DNA of 34,302 bases, from assembly GCA_021813325.1 (NCBI GenBank), contig JAKALA010000046.1:1-34302 (forward strand), written 5' to 3'. Source of the DNA: a bacterium. Lineage in GTDB: Bacteria > Verrucomicrobiota > Verrucomicrobiia > Limisphaerales > UBA11358. This document shows positions 9,679 through 13,650 of this stretch, in pieces (the first letter of the stretch is position 1; each line of letters opens with the position of its first letter). The position numbers and the translations under genes were made by a program. The notes beneath the pieces were generated by a model, which saw only the letters and a program-made list of their open reading frames with translations, searched no databases and had not been told where the DNA came from.

Positions 9679-12600
9679 CTAGCAGCGGTTACGCTTGCGT
9701 CGCTCAGAAAGTGCCAGTGTCCTGGTTGTGAGAGTTGCGAGCGCCGCCATTTTGGATTCTTTTAAAATGATTGTGATTTCCCTGGATAAATCGTTGGCCG
9801 CAGCGTGATTTGGATCTCGCAACAGCACCTCCCGCACTAATTTTTCAGCTGCGGCTATGCTGCCCAACCCCAGCCGTGCTTGGGCTTGCAGGAACAGCGC
9901 CGCGGTTTCCTGCCGGAACTGGATGTCGTCGTCGAACAACAACATGGTCGGTAGCGAAGTGGCAAAGTAATCAATCTTGGCCTCGCTTTTCTGTAGTTGT
10001 CGGGCGTAAGCCAGCAGATCGTGAAACAGTTTTTTGGCCCTTACCGGTTGGGCGAGTTTTTCCCAAGCCAGCGCGGAATAGTAAGTCATTTCGCTGAAGG
10101 CGCGGACGCTCATTTCCTGGAAATCACCCTTGCATGTCGCGGCGGTGAGCCAATGCAGTTTGGCTTTCCTAGCCTCGCCAGCCGCTGCCAGCGCGCAGCC
10201 CAGCCAGTAATGGATGTCGCTCTGGTTCGCGAGCAAATGCTTGGCCTCGCCGAGGTTTAATGGCGCGGTGAGAGCGGCTTGAAAATGTTCGATGGCAAGG
10301 GTAGGGCGCGTCACTCCGCGCGCGCCGCGCTTGTCTGCTCGCCCCCCGGCGCGCAGAGGACTGCGCACCCCACCCTGGCCAAGAACCTTGCGTCCCAAGG
10401 CCAGATGCGATCGGACCCATTGTCCCAGAGGGCCGCCTTCGCCGCCTTCCCATGGCTGGAAATTCCGGGCGCTGACCAATGCTAGAGCCTTCTCATGCTG
10501 GCCAACCTGATTGTAGAGCGCGCACAACTCCACGCTCAAATCGTCGCGCTGCTGCACGAGAACGAGGCGTTTTTCAAGTTCACGCAACCGTTTCTCGGGT
10601 TTCTCGCCGAGGCGTTTCCAAAGCTGGTCGCGTTCGTAGAGCAAACGGCCATCCGCAGGATTCACTTTGACCGCGCGGTCATACGCCGCGCGTGACTTGG
10701 CGGGATTCCCGAGGATGTTGAAATAGCCGATGCCCAGATTGCGCCAGGTAATCGAGAAGTTTCCATCAAGCCGGGCCGACTTTTCCCAGAGTCGGATTGC
10801 CTCGACGTGGCGACGGCGGTCGTAAAGTAAATTGCCGAGATAATAAGGTGCCTTGGCATCGCGTGGATTCACAGCCATGGCGGCTTCCAGAATGGCGATT
10901 TCTTCCAGCCGCGCCGGGAAACAATAATCCGCCGGCAACGTTGCCGCACGTTTGAAATGTTTCAATGCTGCTTTGCTGCCGCCACGTTTTTGTTCGAGCC
11001 AGCCCAGCGTGTAGTGAACAAGCGGCAACGCGCCCCAGTTTTGGTCCGACAATCCCAACGGGACTGAGGCATCCAGACCAGGGTTGGCATTATGGCGACT
11101 ACCCTGGGTGAGTGACGAAGGATTCTGCAATCCTGAAGGGGTTGTGCCGCCGATTGATGCAACCCATTCAGGGTTGTGTAATGATCCGGAGACTCCCCGG
11201 GGTAGCTCATTCGTCGCAACCCTGGGCTGTGTGCTAGGATCCCGTTGGGATTCTTTTGTGCGTGAAGCGAGGATTATGATTGCATTTTCAAACAATCCGG
11301 CCCGGGCGTAATCGTGCGCTACGTCGAGGCAGATTTGGTGATCACACTTCAATACATCGCCATTCAGATGACGGGCCCACCAGTCAAGCGGGTCAAGGGC
11401 GAGAGTGTCACGTAAGACAGCCATCGCGGCTGTCTCCAAATTTTTTCTTTCAATTCGAGACAGGCGCGACGCCTGTCCTACGGCAGTCAGCTTCCGCAGC
11501 ACGATTACTTTCAAATTTCGGGCACGGAGGTTGTCCGTGTCGAACCGTAGTGAACGGTTCAAGTGTTCCAGTGCTGTGGTCCAATCGCGGCGGACGCAAT
11601 CGATCTCGGCCAGCGCATGATAGCTGGCGGCTGCCCAAGCCTGATTCCACGTGGCTTTGTAGAACGCGGCGTAAGCGTTGGCAAGAAGCTGCGCCCCCTC
11701 ACCCTGACCCTCTTCCCTGATGGGGGCGAGGGAATGGATACGTTGGCGCAAGGCCAGACCGAGGTGATAGAGCGGTTCGCCGTCGTAAGGATTGGAGTTG
11801 CGACGGGTCAGGCGTTCGATGGCTGTGCGAAAGTGCGTTTCCGCAAGTTCGAGTTCGCCGCGTTTGAAATGCCAGAGGCCGAGCGCGTTGTTGCAGCGGG
11901 CGTCCAGCGGATCGCGACGCAAGGCTTCGCGCCAATAGAGGCTCGGACATCGCGTGGCGTGACGATACTGGTTCAGATGCAGTCCGGTGAGATAAAGTTC
12001 GTCGGTGCTGGAGATTTCCGATGCGGCTGGTGGTTCCGTCGCAGGCGGTGGAACTTTGCCGATGACACGCTTCTTCGGCTGATAAGAAATGATTTCCGTG
12101 CCGGAGCTATCAGTCACGCGCAGGAGCAAATCTGTTTCAGTGACGCCGCGCGGCAGTTTGATTTCGGAGACGAATGGTGTGCCGGGCGTGAGGTCGCGGG
12201 TGGTTTTGAGAAGAGATTTACCTTTCGCAACGAGCAAAATTGTTGACCCTCCAAGTTTTTTTGTCACCGAAACTCCCAGTCGCATAAAGGTCTGCGAGGT
12301 TTTGGAGTGCGCCGGCCCACCGGCGCTTTTCGAGCGCGGCAGAGGACTGCCACTCTCCAAGACGCAAAGCGAGATCGCCGCATCTAGGTTGGCATGCTGC
12401 GCTGGGCCGATATCCTGGATCGGATACCAATATTGGCTCCACGTTTTCGTCTCGCCGGGCTGGAGGAAAGCGAAGTCCGGCTGGTTGTCGGTGTAAACAC
12501 CGGCCATGATCTCGATGTAGGGACCGAATTCATCCAATTGTGGCGGCGACGCCTCCGTCGCCGAATCCACTTTGCCATCTGCGACGAGGGCGTCGCCGCC

Positions 12601-13650
12601 ACGGCTGATACGCCCGGTCAGGTTGCGGTCCCACGCGTAGCCAAAATCGTGATTGCCCCACGTCCACTGTTTCTTGCCGGGTGAGATGTGGTGATTGGCA
12701 ATGTGGACGATGCCGGCCTGCGCCGCGTAATCGTAGCCGCCGAAGAAATCTTCCTGGCTACCCATGCACATGTAGGAAGTCGGCACGGGAATGTTGGCGT
12801 AAAACGAAAGATCATTCGGCGCGTAATCGGGAATTTCCGATTTCCGATTTCCGATTTCCGATTTGCCTCCGCAATGCGCCGGAATGAATTGCGACGGCAT
12901 TTCGCTCTGAGGAACGCCTTTGCGACCGCGTTTGCCGTAGTTGACGCCGTAGTAATGGCCTTGTGCCAGTGGATACTCGCTGATTGAGCGGCGCGCGTGG
13001 TCGGCGACGTAATAAACGTCCGGCGGGAAAAAACTTTGATACGCCTCATGCACGCGCGTGGCAACGTTGGCCCACCAGAGAAACGTTTGCGTGAGCTGCG
13101 TGCGATTGTAGGCGCGGACCTTGAGTTCGACATACGCCTTGCCCGGATGTAGGCAAATGCCGTGCATGCCTTTCATGCGCGCCATCGGATCGTGATCGCT
13201 GCACCAGACCGTAACCGAGCCGTCGGCGTGCTTTTCGATTTCGTGATCGACCGGCAGAAACGTTGCGGGACGATGATGCTGCGGCCAGTTAAACTCAATG
13301 CCGCCGGAAATCCAAGGACCAGCCAGACCCACCAGCGCAGGCTTGATGACATGCTGGTTGTAGATTATGTCGTAGTCATTGGTCTTGTCCCGAATGGCGT
13401 GGATGCGTCCGCCGATTTCTGGCAGCACCAGCACGCGCAGAAATTCATTTTCGATCCAGATCGCCTGCCACTTGCGGTCCACGGACTTTTCGGCGATGCG
13501 GTCGGTGAAGGGCATAGGATAAACCTTGCCGCTGCTGCCCTGATAAACCCGCTTCGCCAGGAACATCGGATTTTTGTCCGGCGGCGCGGGCAGATGCGTC
13601 GGGAGCGTGATGGTCGTGCGCGAAACTTGGACTGAGTTTTTCTGGCTCAT
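9679..13650 (-). CDS. DUF5107 domain and tetratricopeptide repeat protein carrying in-frame repeat insertions
   Basis: A 1,323-aa protein. The N-terminal ~330 residues form a DUF5107 domain (a beta-rich domain of unknown function often near glycoside hydrolases), with GGIEFNWPQHHRP at 116-128. The rest is mostly TPR helices, including the family block WEGGEGG..GQWVRSHLALGR near 1070. No signal peptide is visible. At least seven segments look foreign: residues about 263-272, 350-371, 431-450, 637-654, 724-747, 803-869 and 1092-1117. They match DNA palindromes or tandem repeats and interrupt otherwise regular domains, and all keep the frame. Without them the protein would be near 1,140 aa. It is the first gene of the sugar operon, starting 99 bp from the divergent AraC gene. 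Its role in sugar use is unknown. Confidence 0.8.
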   Translation of the reverse strand: MSQKNSVQVSRTTITLPTHLPAPPDKNPMFLAKRVYQGSSGKVYPMPFTDRIAEKSVDRKWQAIWIENEFLRVLVLPEIGGRIHAIRDKTNDYDIIYNQHVIKPALVGLAGPWISGGIEFNWPQHHRPATFLPVDHEIEKHADGSVTVWCSDHDPMARMKGMHGICLHPGKAYVELKVRAYNRTQLTQTFLWWANVATRVHEAYQSFFPPDVYYVADHARRSISEYPLAQGHYYGVNYGKRGRKGVPQSEMPSQFIPAHCGGKSEIGNRKSEIPDYAPNDLSFYANIPVPTSYMCMGSQEDFFGGYDYAAQAGIVHIANHHISPGKKQWTWGNHDFGYAWDRNLTGRISRGGDALVADGKVDSATEASPPQLDEFGPYIEIMAGVYTDNQPDFAFLQPGETKTWSQYWYPIQDIGPAQHANLDAAISLCVLESGSPLPRSKSAGGPAHSKTSQTFMRLGVSVTKKLGGSTILLVAKGKSLLKTTRDLTPGTPFVSEIKLPRGVTETDLLLRVTDSSGTEIISYQPKKRVIGKVPPPATEPPAASEISSTDELYLTGLHLNQYRHATRCPSLYWREALRRDPLDARCNNALGLWHFKRGELELAETHFRTAIERLTRRNSNPYDGEPLYHLGLALRQRIHSLAPIREEGQGEGAQLLANAYAAFYKATWNQAWAAASYHALAEIDCVRRDWTTALEHLNRSLRFDTDNLRARNLKVIVLRKLTAVGQASRLSRIERKNLETAAMAVLRDTLALDPLDWWARHLNGDVLKCDHQICLDVAHDYARAGLFENAIIILASRTKESQRDPSTQPRVATNELPRGVSGSLHNPEWVASIGGTTPSGLQNPSSLTQGSRHNANPGLDASVPLGLSDQNWGALPLVHYTLGWLEQKRGGSKAALKHFKRAATLPADYCFPARLEEIAILEAAMAVNPRDAKAPYYLGNLLYDRRRHVEAIRLWEKSARLDGNFSITWRNLGIGYFNILGNPAKSRAAYDRAVKVNPADGRLLYERDQLWKRLGEKPEKRLRELEKRLVLVQQRDDLSVELCALYNQVGQHEKALALVSARNFQPWEGGEGGPLGQWVRSHLALGRKVLGQGGVRSPLRAGGRADKRGARGVTRPTLAIEHFQAALTAPLNLGEAKHLLANQSDIHYWLGCALAAAGEARKAKLHWLTAATCKGDFQEMSVRAFSEMTYYSALAWEKLAQPVRAKKLFHDLLAYARQLQKSEAKIDYFATSLPTMLLFDDDIQFRQETAALFLQAQARLGLGSIAAAEKLVREVLLRDPNHAAANDLSREITIILKESKMAALATLTTRTLALSERRKRNRC
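10299..10375. repeat. In-frame GC-rich palindromic insertion in the DUF5107/TPR gene
   Basis: About 77 bp bounded by GGGTAGGG (10299-10306) and CCCCACCC (10368-10375), an imperfect inverted pair. It is read as an Arg/Gly-rich stretch (residues ~1092-1117: GVRSPLRAGGRADKRGARG) that splits a TPR helix pair between LGRKVLGQG and LAIEHFQAAL. Confidence 0.55.
11051..11252. repeat. 202-bp palindromic MITE-like element inserted in frame
   Basis: It is bounded by 13-bp perfect inverted repeats AATCCCAACGGGA (11051-11063) and its complement (11240-11252). A second nested pair, CCAGGGTTG (11078-11086) with CAACCCTGG (11217-11225), lies inside, followed by CCAGGGT/ACCCTGG (11078-11084, 11101-11107) and CAACCC/GGGTTG (11160-11165, 11171-11176). 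The element is read through as a polar, Pro/Ser/Asn-rich linker (residues ~800-867) between two TPRs. No transposase is encoded within it. Confidence 0.75.
11412..11481. repeat. REP-like double hairpin inserted in frame
   Basis: Two perfect hairpins stand back to back: GACAGCC/GGCTGTC (11416-11422, 11428-11434) and GACAGGCG/CGCCTGTC (11459-11466, 11470-11477). The outer ends GTAAGACAG and CTGTCCTAC are themselves an imperfect inverted pair. It is read as GQASRLSRIERKNLETAAMA (residues ~724-747) in the TPR region. Confidence 0.7.
11690..11741. repeat. Short palindromic insertion in frame
   Basis: The imperfect inverted pair CCCTCACCC (11696-11704) and GGGCGAGGG (11724-11732) encloses a pyrimidine-rich loop. 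It is read as SLAPIREEGQGEGAQ, interrupting a TPR just before AYAAFYKATWNQAW. Confidence 0.5.
12302..12360. repeat. Palindromic insertion in frame
   Basis: The ends TTGGAG (12302-12307) and CTCCAA (12355-12360) are complementary. Inside lies a perfect 7-bp hairpin GCGCCGG/CCGGCGC with a 4-nt loop (12309-12326). It is read as ESGSPLPRSKSAGGPAHSKT (residues ~431-450). Confidence 0.6.
12540..12602. repeat. 14-bp perfect inverted repeat inserted in frame
   Basis: GTGGCGGCGACGCC (12540-12553) is exactly complementary to 12589-12602, with a 35-nt loop. It is read as GGDALVADGKVDSATEASPP (residues ~350-371) inside the DUF5107 domain. Confidence 0.65.
12835..12863. repeat. 7-bp tandem repeat (TTCCGAT)4 inside the DUF5107 domain
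   Basis: Four perfect tandem copies of TTCCGAT (12835-12862) plus a partial copy. On the coding strand they give KSEIGNRKSEI. A 7-bp unit shifts frame each copy, so three copies give one full cycle; the four-copy tract plus its flank keeps the gene open. Confidence 0.8.

Follow-up and report, generated by a model that had tools for sequence, protein, structure and literature searches.

In-frame repeat inserts in the linkers of a DUF5107/TPR gene, and RAYT genes that lie in frame inside ClpB and other host proteins

A single DUF5107/TPR gene of the analysed window (the entire 34,302-base contig C37, one of the 123 contigs that make up a 4.28-Mb assembly) carries six in-frame insertions of five or six repeat kinds, and repeats of one of these families flank a RAYT gene that lies in frame, without a stop codon of its own, inside clpB of the same genome. 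We give a probability of roughly 0.8 to our overall reading, in which the gene is a sink of mostly REPINs lodged in tolerant linkers, the same elements have entered other genes and RAYT genes are embedded in host proteins. The stop-less RAYT inside a host protein recurs in many genes and, judged by record titles, in several phyla.

Results and discussion

Six inserts in one gene

The host gene (9679..13650, minus strand) is a single uninterrupted open frame of 1323 aa that encodes a DUF5107 domain (residues 42-345) followed by TPRs. A protein search with the window gene among 59 relatives gave matches in 53, many of them just distant TPR proteins. The alignment was therefore built on 15 full-length orthologues (L057-L071), 14 from the same genus and one (L065) from the same order, with a sixteenth long locus (L072) left out; these orthologues are 69-77% identical to the window protein in the matched N-terminal stretch. 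Linker lengths were measured with a search expression, which left a few rows unmatched and gave for L067 at the 11412 linker a value that is an artefact. An AlphaFold model of the TPR part of the window protein (757 aa, single sequence) was discarded as useless (mean pLDDT 36).

The first-pass annotation had proposed seven in-frame insertions of several different repeat elements. Six of the seven segments are indeed missing from the 15 orthologues compared and comprise five or six repeat kinds; the seventh proved to be a tandem repeat in a linker of ordinary length. Insert A (10299..10375) is a GTAG-tagged REP doublet with a GCAGAGGACTGC core that adds about 21 aa; it is missing from the orthologues, and L059 and L069 hold 22 and 11 aa of other sequence at this linker. 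Insert B (11051..11252), a 202-bp element with 36-bp imperfect inverted arms, adds 63 aa at a linker where L058, L061, L062, L064 and L069 hold different inserts of 14-21 aa. Insert C (11412..11481) is a REPIN in which two REPs of the GACAGGCGTCGCGCCTGTC type, tagged GTAG/GTAA, stand inverted to each other; it adds about 15 aa and is absent in 14 of the 15 orthologues, L057 having another 11 aa. Insert D (11690..11741) is a CCCTCACCCTGACCCTC / GGGGGCGAGGG element, and its linker has at most 2 extra residues in 12 of the 15 orthologues and 13, 25 and 34 residues of other sequence in L057, L060 and L071. Insert E (12302..12360), a REP-like doublet that has the GCAGAGGACTGC core in common with A, adds about 21 aa (21 to 23) and is absent in all 15. 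Insert F (12540..12602), a REPIN with arms GTGGCGGCGACGCC in inverted order, adds 22 aa and is absent in 14 of the 15, with a different 15 aa in L062; it belongs to the same family as the REPs that flank the RAYT inside clpB. Segment G (12835..12863) is a 7-bp tandem of TTTCCGA without extra insertion. At this linker 12 of the 14 measured orthologues are about as long as the window or longer (7 to 36 residues over the shortest, with 8 in the window), the linker being short only in L064 and L067 among those measured and, in the alignment, in L065; L057 and L058, for example, carry other 7-bp tandems there, as judged by eye.

Clear palindromes had been claimed for all segments but one. DNA folding of the inserted columns only, compared with 100 mononucleotide shuffles, gave z-scores of -5.4 (12540), -3.7 (11412), -3.4 (12302) and -2.7 (11051), which bear the claim out for four inserts, and of -1.8 (10299) and -1.5 (part of 11690), so that the palindrome signal is weak in two of the six. 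If REPs are taken as palindromes of 20-40 bp that are often GTAG-tagged and are repeated in the genome, A, C and F fit by sequence (copies of family F begin GTGG or GTAG), E has the core of A without the GTAG tag, and B, D and G fall outside, D and G not being clearly REPINs. An inverted REP pair forming one hairpin unit is clear in F and C and imperfect in A and E. By these sequence features, A, C, E and F have the look of REPINs (doublets of REP-type palindromes) and not of Rickettsia palindromic elements. A search of the window with Rfam at gathering thresholds, insert B included, gave zero matches.

Repeated occupation of the same linkers

The sequences that fill these linkers, and the positions of the inserts, are not conserved between species. 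At the DNA level, with kinds assigned by eye, the 11051 linker holds B in the window, a D-like element in both L058 and L061, a C-like REPIN in L062 (z -5.4), another palindrome in L064 (z -5.3) and, in L069, an insert of no clear kind with z near 0, the remaining orthologues being short or nearly so; this amounts to four clear element kinds across five species. The 12540 linker holds REPIN F in the window and a C-like element in L062 and is empty in the 14 others, so that by eye C-like elements stand at two linkers of the L062 orthologue. At the 10299 linker, A is found in the window and 7-bp tandems with other sequence in L059 and L069. Among all orthologue inserts of at least 10 aa (n = 19, inserted columns only), two have z below -5 and one has z -2.1; the rest lie between -1.4 and 1.0, no better than shuffles. 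The presence of unlike elements at the same few linkers would be expected from tolerance of the protein, or else from targeting. The suggestion in the first-pass annotation that TPR linkers tolerate such inserts was thus right in kind, given that these linkers are filled by different sequence in other species.

Copies elsewhere in the genome

Comparison of the window gene DNA with the genome at E<=1 gave 48 matches, the gene itself included. Elsewhere in the genome there are 17 copies of the 12540 type, 5 of the 10299 type, 5 of the 11412 type (one arm), one full and one partial copy of the 11051 type and 1 of the 12835 type; the 12302 and 11690 types have zero copies elsewhere at this threshold. 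The GCAGAGGACTGC core occurs at 9 genomic places with at most 1 mismatch, 5 of them exact and two of these inside the window gene, and the reversed control pattern at 6. The 11690 core occurs at 17 places with at most 2 mismatches, of which many may be chance because its control gave 9. Since the inserts are missing from orthologues and most of them have copies elsewhere, those of family F also between genes (5 sites), neither observation that had been named as counting against inserted repeats, segments shared by distant orthologues or present once in the genome, describes them.

A high-copy repeat family was considered and rejected on a 14-mer census of a 358-kb sample (window included), in which the maximum count was 4; the families are accordingly low-copy. 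The families were recognised through their occurrence in the window gene, and for this reason we attach no probability to the clustering of elements there.

Family F allows the distribution of sites to be followed most closely. Its core occurs with at most 1 mismatch at 89 places (control 35), and the 23 exact ones and three others were examined. The 23 exact places make up 18 sites: at least 8 in frame in Pfam-confirmed genes (aconitase, the window gene, HGD-D, SelB, a nucleotidyl transferase, near its start, DapF, ThiC and the second valS site), 5 in long frames on contigs C7, C10, C21, C50 and C79, some of which may be chance and one of which resembles acetate kinase by eye, and 5 intergenic. 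With two one-mismatch sites that were included because they were already known (the first valS site and clpB), the family has 10 genic, 5 long-frame and 5 intergenic sites among 20. Of the A/E family, copies stand in frame in AroA and two further long frames, and family D is represented in a purL-like frame and in one of 1005 aa (hosts by eye); for several further A/E and D copies, and for the second full copy of element B (C7:71575-71790), no long frame runs across. The window gene is therefore not the sole host of these families, since they also stand in frame in aconitase, SelB, ThiC, ValS, DapF, AroA, ClpB and others. Its remark that the neighbouring genes are free of them agrees with our search, in which no clear copy was seen in the other 30 kb of the window and four family-F matches with 2 mismatches look like chance.

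Three further observations concern the surroundings of these copies. The five intergenic F copies (L101, L102, L105, L106, L107) stand, by eye and with variation, within an outer inverted sequence TGTAGAAAAGATG ... CATCTTTTCTACA that the genic F copies are without, so the intergenic REPs perhaps lie inside a larger inverted repeat as a composite MITE. Several REPs are clustered in frame near the start of a 440-aa acetate kinase-like frame (C7:73526-73631, by eye). Translated matches to the element B stretch, with stops, were seen in other genomes of the order.

A RAYT in frame inside clpB

A search of the genome with PF01797 returned five matches, four of them above the cut-off. One is a complete RAYT (C26:33804-34319) in frame within clpB (fusion at C26:32631-35591, L007 / L116), with family-F REPs on both sides in inverted order (C26:33695 and C26:34428) and ClpB host families recognised by Pfam on both sides. 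This RAYT is without its own stop codon. Free RAYT relatives end in a stop codon, which an element that resides within a reading frame would have had to lose. The clpB frame runs unbroken through the F-flanked RAYT, from which we predict that the transposase is produced as a ClpB domain. Among the remaining Y1 matches, the one on C76 resembles IS200 TnpA by eye, and those on C78 and C3 are partial or weak. A free-standing Y1 transposase (C10:22444) is flanked by AGCCCAGC...GCTGGGT palindromes that were not seen in the window gene. For families A/E, B, C, D and G no partner RAYT was found, which leaves F as the one family linked to a RAYT in this genome.

Three species, those of L151, L152 and the own genome, carry the clpB fusion as an open frame. 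The fused frames measure 1128, 1149 and 1137 aa. A search of 36 genus genomes recovered it whole and without stops in G013 (87% identical) and G031 (80%). Other species of the genus have ClpB without the RAYT, with a linker of 45-53 aa in 16 of 20 (the remaining 4 were unmatched by the search expression) against 289-318 aa in the fused proteins. Some of the empty linkers hold short palindromes of other kinds, for example in L129 and L127 (by eye). Between the own genome (G000) and G013, pS is 0.56 for the RAYT and 0.51 for the host; the RAYT has diverged about in step with its host, as expected if it was inherited.

Embedded RAYTs in other genes and, by record titles, other phyla

Searches at the level of the genus, the order and named genomes were ranked by a query built on fused RAYTs, so that the proportions given here are not frequencies. 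Within 49 genus genomes (E<=1e-30), 9 of 47 matches lie in open frames of at least 764 aa and the other 38 in frames of 204-393; in one of the nine (G066:C44) the RAYT is near the frame end and repeats are inside the RAYT. Across 245 genomes of the order (E<=1e-40), 30 of 108 matches, from 24 genomes, lie in frames of at least 600 aa; the own clpB is the host that was examined in this set, and one of the 30 long frames (G082:C530) contains a TGA. The scan of named genomes gave at least 446 RAYT relatives; among the best 80, 42 have frames of at least 420 aa, and the frames of the remaining 38 span 155-324 aa.

Hosts of the 42 named fused frames among these best 80 include carB, leuS, dnaE, priA and hsdR. 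One site in carB, recognised by its flanks, holds a RAYT in eight loci (L171, L194, L196, L209, L212, L220, L223, L225), and one site in leuS in six (L175, L188, L189, L195, L204, L235). RAYT relatives with very long frames proved to lie within a DinG-like helicase, at one site of PriA in two species and likewise at one site of DnaE in two species. The dnaE gene of L213 has a second RAYT site besides the common one, and where L148 has just a REPIN in a dnaE linker, L213 has an entire RAYT element (by eye). The Pfam scan, which covered 12 of the 42 named fused frames, several of which end at contig edges, supports as hosts SNF2 helicase, MgsA, CarB, LeuS, HsdR (two kinds) and Eco57I methylase, and further an adenosine deaminase with a Cas_NE0113 part, NUDIX and DUF1156. 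In L222 the RAYT is at the end of the host, L187 is carB by resemblance only and the hosts of L197 and L227 are unassigned. All 42 named fused records are titled MAG or uncultured. Their titles name Verrucomicrobiota, Lentisphaerota, Planctomycetota, Bacteroidota, Chlorobiota, Pseudomonadota and Methylomirabilota, although bins can be misnamed; the carB and leuS fusions are in records titled Verrucomicrobiota or its groups.

State of the embedded transposases and their hosts

Y1_Tnp (PF01797) was found in 15 of 16 scanned fusions; 12 of the 16 have host families at both ends and 4 at one. All 42 fused and all 37 free named RAYTs examined have the HxH motif, a uniformity that in part reflects the design of the named scan, which looked for the peptide FV[VI]MPNHV; the tyrosine motif is present in 41 of the 42 fused. 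Residues 462-613 of a LeuS-RAYT model match IS608 TnpA (2a6o_A) with Z 11.6 over 99 aligned residues at 2.5 A; the AlphaFold model, made from six sequences, is poor (mean pLDDT 48, about 70 in the RAYT part) and is read as a fold match only.

In clpB, dN/dS is 0.09-0.16 for the RAYT and 0.085-0.13 for the host. In the 15 of 36 pairs in which it was computable (no RAYT value resulted for the other 21), RAYT dN/dS is 0.075-0.176, close to that of the hosts. The dN/dS analysis drew on 5 of 6 leuS loci, 6 of the 9 presumed carB loci and 4 of 8 for hsdR, and its values are approximate, most pairs being close to saturation at synonymous sites. In six fusions the sequences to either side of the RAYT retain the LeuRS core, as far as the contigs reach, with HVGH in 6 of 6 and KMSKS in all five not cut by a contig end (both of which we take to be the LeuRS motifs of those names).

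Words of at least 14 bp shared by both flanks occur in 32 of the 37 fused RAYTs with sufficient flank and in 31 of 38 free ones; in control flanks 1.25 kb further out they occur in 0 of 30 and 0 of 31. In a quick tree of 106 RAYTs (L207, L250 and L261 dropped as short, L258 unmatched, L265 on a very long branch), 49 of the 51 fused rows are distinct (L201 equals the G035 row and L203 the G030 priA row) and RAYTs of one host gene tend to neighbour each other. The fused state changes 19 times on this tree, at least 8 of the changes being forced by strongly supported branches, against a mean of 35 for shuffled states. The carB loci L171 and L220 have close hosts (pS 0.33) and distant RAYTs (pS 0.86, and apart in the tree as well), so this site was entered or refilled more than once.

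Inteins also reside in frame at recurrent sites of essential genes such as dnaE, and the embedded RAYTs resemble them in occupying recurrent core-gene sites in frame. The difference is that no intein or Hint family was found in the 16 fused proteins scanned (thresholds E<=0.001 and E<=1e-5), that nothing suggests splicing, and that the enzyme is a HUH tyrosine transposase.

Proposed explanation and its alternatives

In the explanation that we favour, small non-autonomous mobile repeats, mostly REPINs, would have landed in frame in the linkers of a tolerant solenoid protein. REPINs are pairs of REP palindromes whose movement is ascribed to RAYT tyrosine transposases. The insertion of REPINs and RAYT elements is itself probably blind to the reading frame; copies that shift the frame, add a stop or disturb folding would be lost, and what remains would be linker inserts read as short polar peptides. 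For family F, the RAYT that F REPs flank in clpB is a likely autonomous partner. The RAYT would mobilise the REPINs, the fused proteins may be made and active, and selection rather than targeting would pick the linkers; these steps are read from sequence comparison. Residence in a core gene would give constant RAYT expression and make deletion costly.

The linkers could instead be chosen at the DNA level, the gene being a preferred target whose features or linkers the elements home to and not a place where they are sorted by tolerance. We regard this as possible but doubtful. It would account for different sequence filling the same linkers in different species, for the RAYT sites in common within leuS (six species), carB (eight loci), priA (two) and dnaE (two), and for the repeated entry or refilling of the carB site of L171 and L220; yet unlike families at one linker should not have one target sequence in common, and linkers between TPR helices and domain borders are presumably where any insert survives. 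That the inserts are kept because their peptides act, for example by regulating or relocating the protein, seems to us unlikely. The first arm of F inserts in nine Pfam-checked hosts is read, by eye, in two of the three frames (GGDA type 6, VAATP type 3, arginine-rich 0), and the embedded RAYT domains have low dN/dS, both of which would agree with such a function. The positions and sequences of the inserts are, however, not conserved between species, and the arginine-rich frame can be avoided without any positive function of the inserts; with equal use of the frames, 0 of 9 would come about with a probability of about 0.03.

Embedded RAYTs could also mark broken host genes or assembly errors, a notion that the metagenomic origin of all named fused records (by title) and the TGA in G082:C530, one of the 30 long frames, keep in view. 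We consider it very improbable, because dN/dS is low in host and RAYT alike, the LeuRS motifs are kept (HVGH 6 of 6, KMSKS in the uncut five) and the same fusions recur in several independent assemblies. Nor does the genome seem to hold a substitute for its fused ClpB: the other matches to the fusion in G000 are only 51-55% and 37% identical, so no second close ClpB was seen.

Relation to known elements

Intragenic REPs are known from the verrucomicrobium Opitutus terrae, in which REP palindromes lie in frame inside ORFs, sometimes two per gene (uvrA), the doublets encode 20-30 aa, placement in linkers or loops was considered, a link of GTAG REPs to RAYT genes was proposed and replication and repair genes are among the hosts (PMC3733652). 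What differs here is that six inserts of several families share one gene, with relatives carrying other sequence at the same linkers, and that whole RAYT genes stand in frame inside host proteins, of which the sections of that report on intragenic GTAG REPs make no mention (PMC3733652). REPINs were described as REP doublets in the form of inverted repeats, the RAYT of the same genome being flanked by the same REPs (PMC3116915). The elements here are alike in their inverted doublets and, for family F, in the RAYT flanked by the same REPs; they differ in that REPINs and RAYTs are placed in extragenic space in the relevant sections of that work (PMC3116915), whereas at least 8 of the 18 exact F sites are genic and 5 intergenic.

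The likeness to Rickettsia palindromic elements that the first-pass annotation drew applies to the in-frame insertion of palindromes into unrelated genes (PMC10969869, PMC3733652), while the doublets better fit GTAG-type REPs and REPINs tied to RAYTs. The Rickettsia elements are about 150 bp long and form ten families (PMC10969869), and CGTC repeats, including RPE-4 and RPE-6, are listed without association to a transposase in the classification concerned (PMC3733652); the inserts are set apart from them here by description and not by RPE sequence. A survey of TnpA-REP proteins, which belong to the same superfamily as the embedded RAYTs, discarded, in its account of data selection, a small number of proteins of surprising length, which it explained as fusions of genes or mistakes of annotation (PMC6006769). 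In the open-licence literature on REPs and RAYTs inside genes we found no account of RAYT genes in frame in hosts. The window gene is thus an extreme case of the already known intragenic REPs, and the embedded RAYT is a novel form.

Biological meaning

We lean slightly towards an unrecognised transposon lifestyle, in which stop-less RAYTs would live as translated domains of core proteins, refill linkers and sow REPINs across the proteome, with the DUF5107 gene and its six inserts as the extreme case. If this is true, the RAYTs in ClpB, CarB, LeuS, DnaE, PriA, HsdR and others would be expressed with the host gene and protected by it from deletion, transposase genes would be carried as domains of core proteins and repetitive extragenic palindromes would be a proteome-wide source of in-frame peptides. 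This would offer a testable explanation for the persistence of RAYTs. Annotators should also be aware that a long protein carrying a transposase domain in mid-sequence may be genuine and need not be discarded as an error. The inserts would also provide a natural experiment on which protein loops tolerate insertion, and a route to new linkers and domains.
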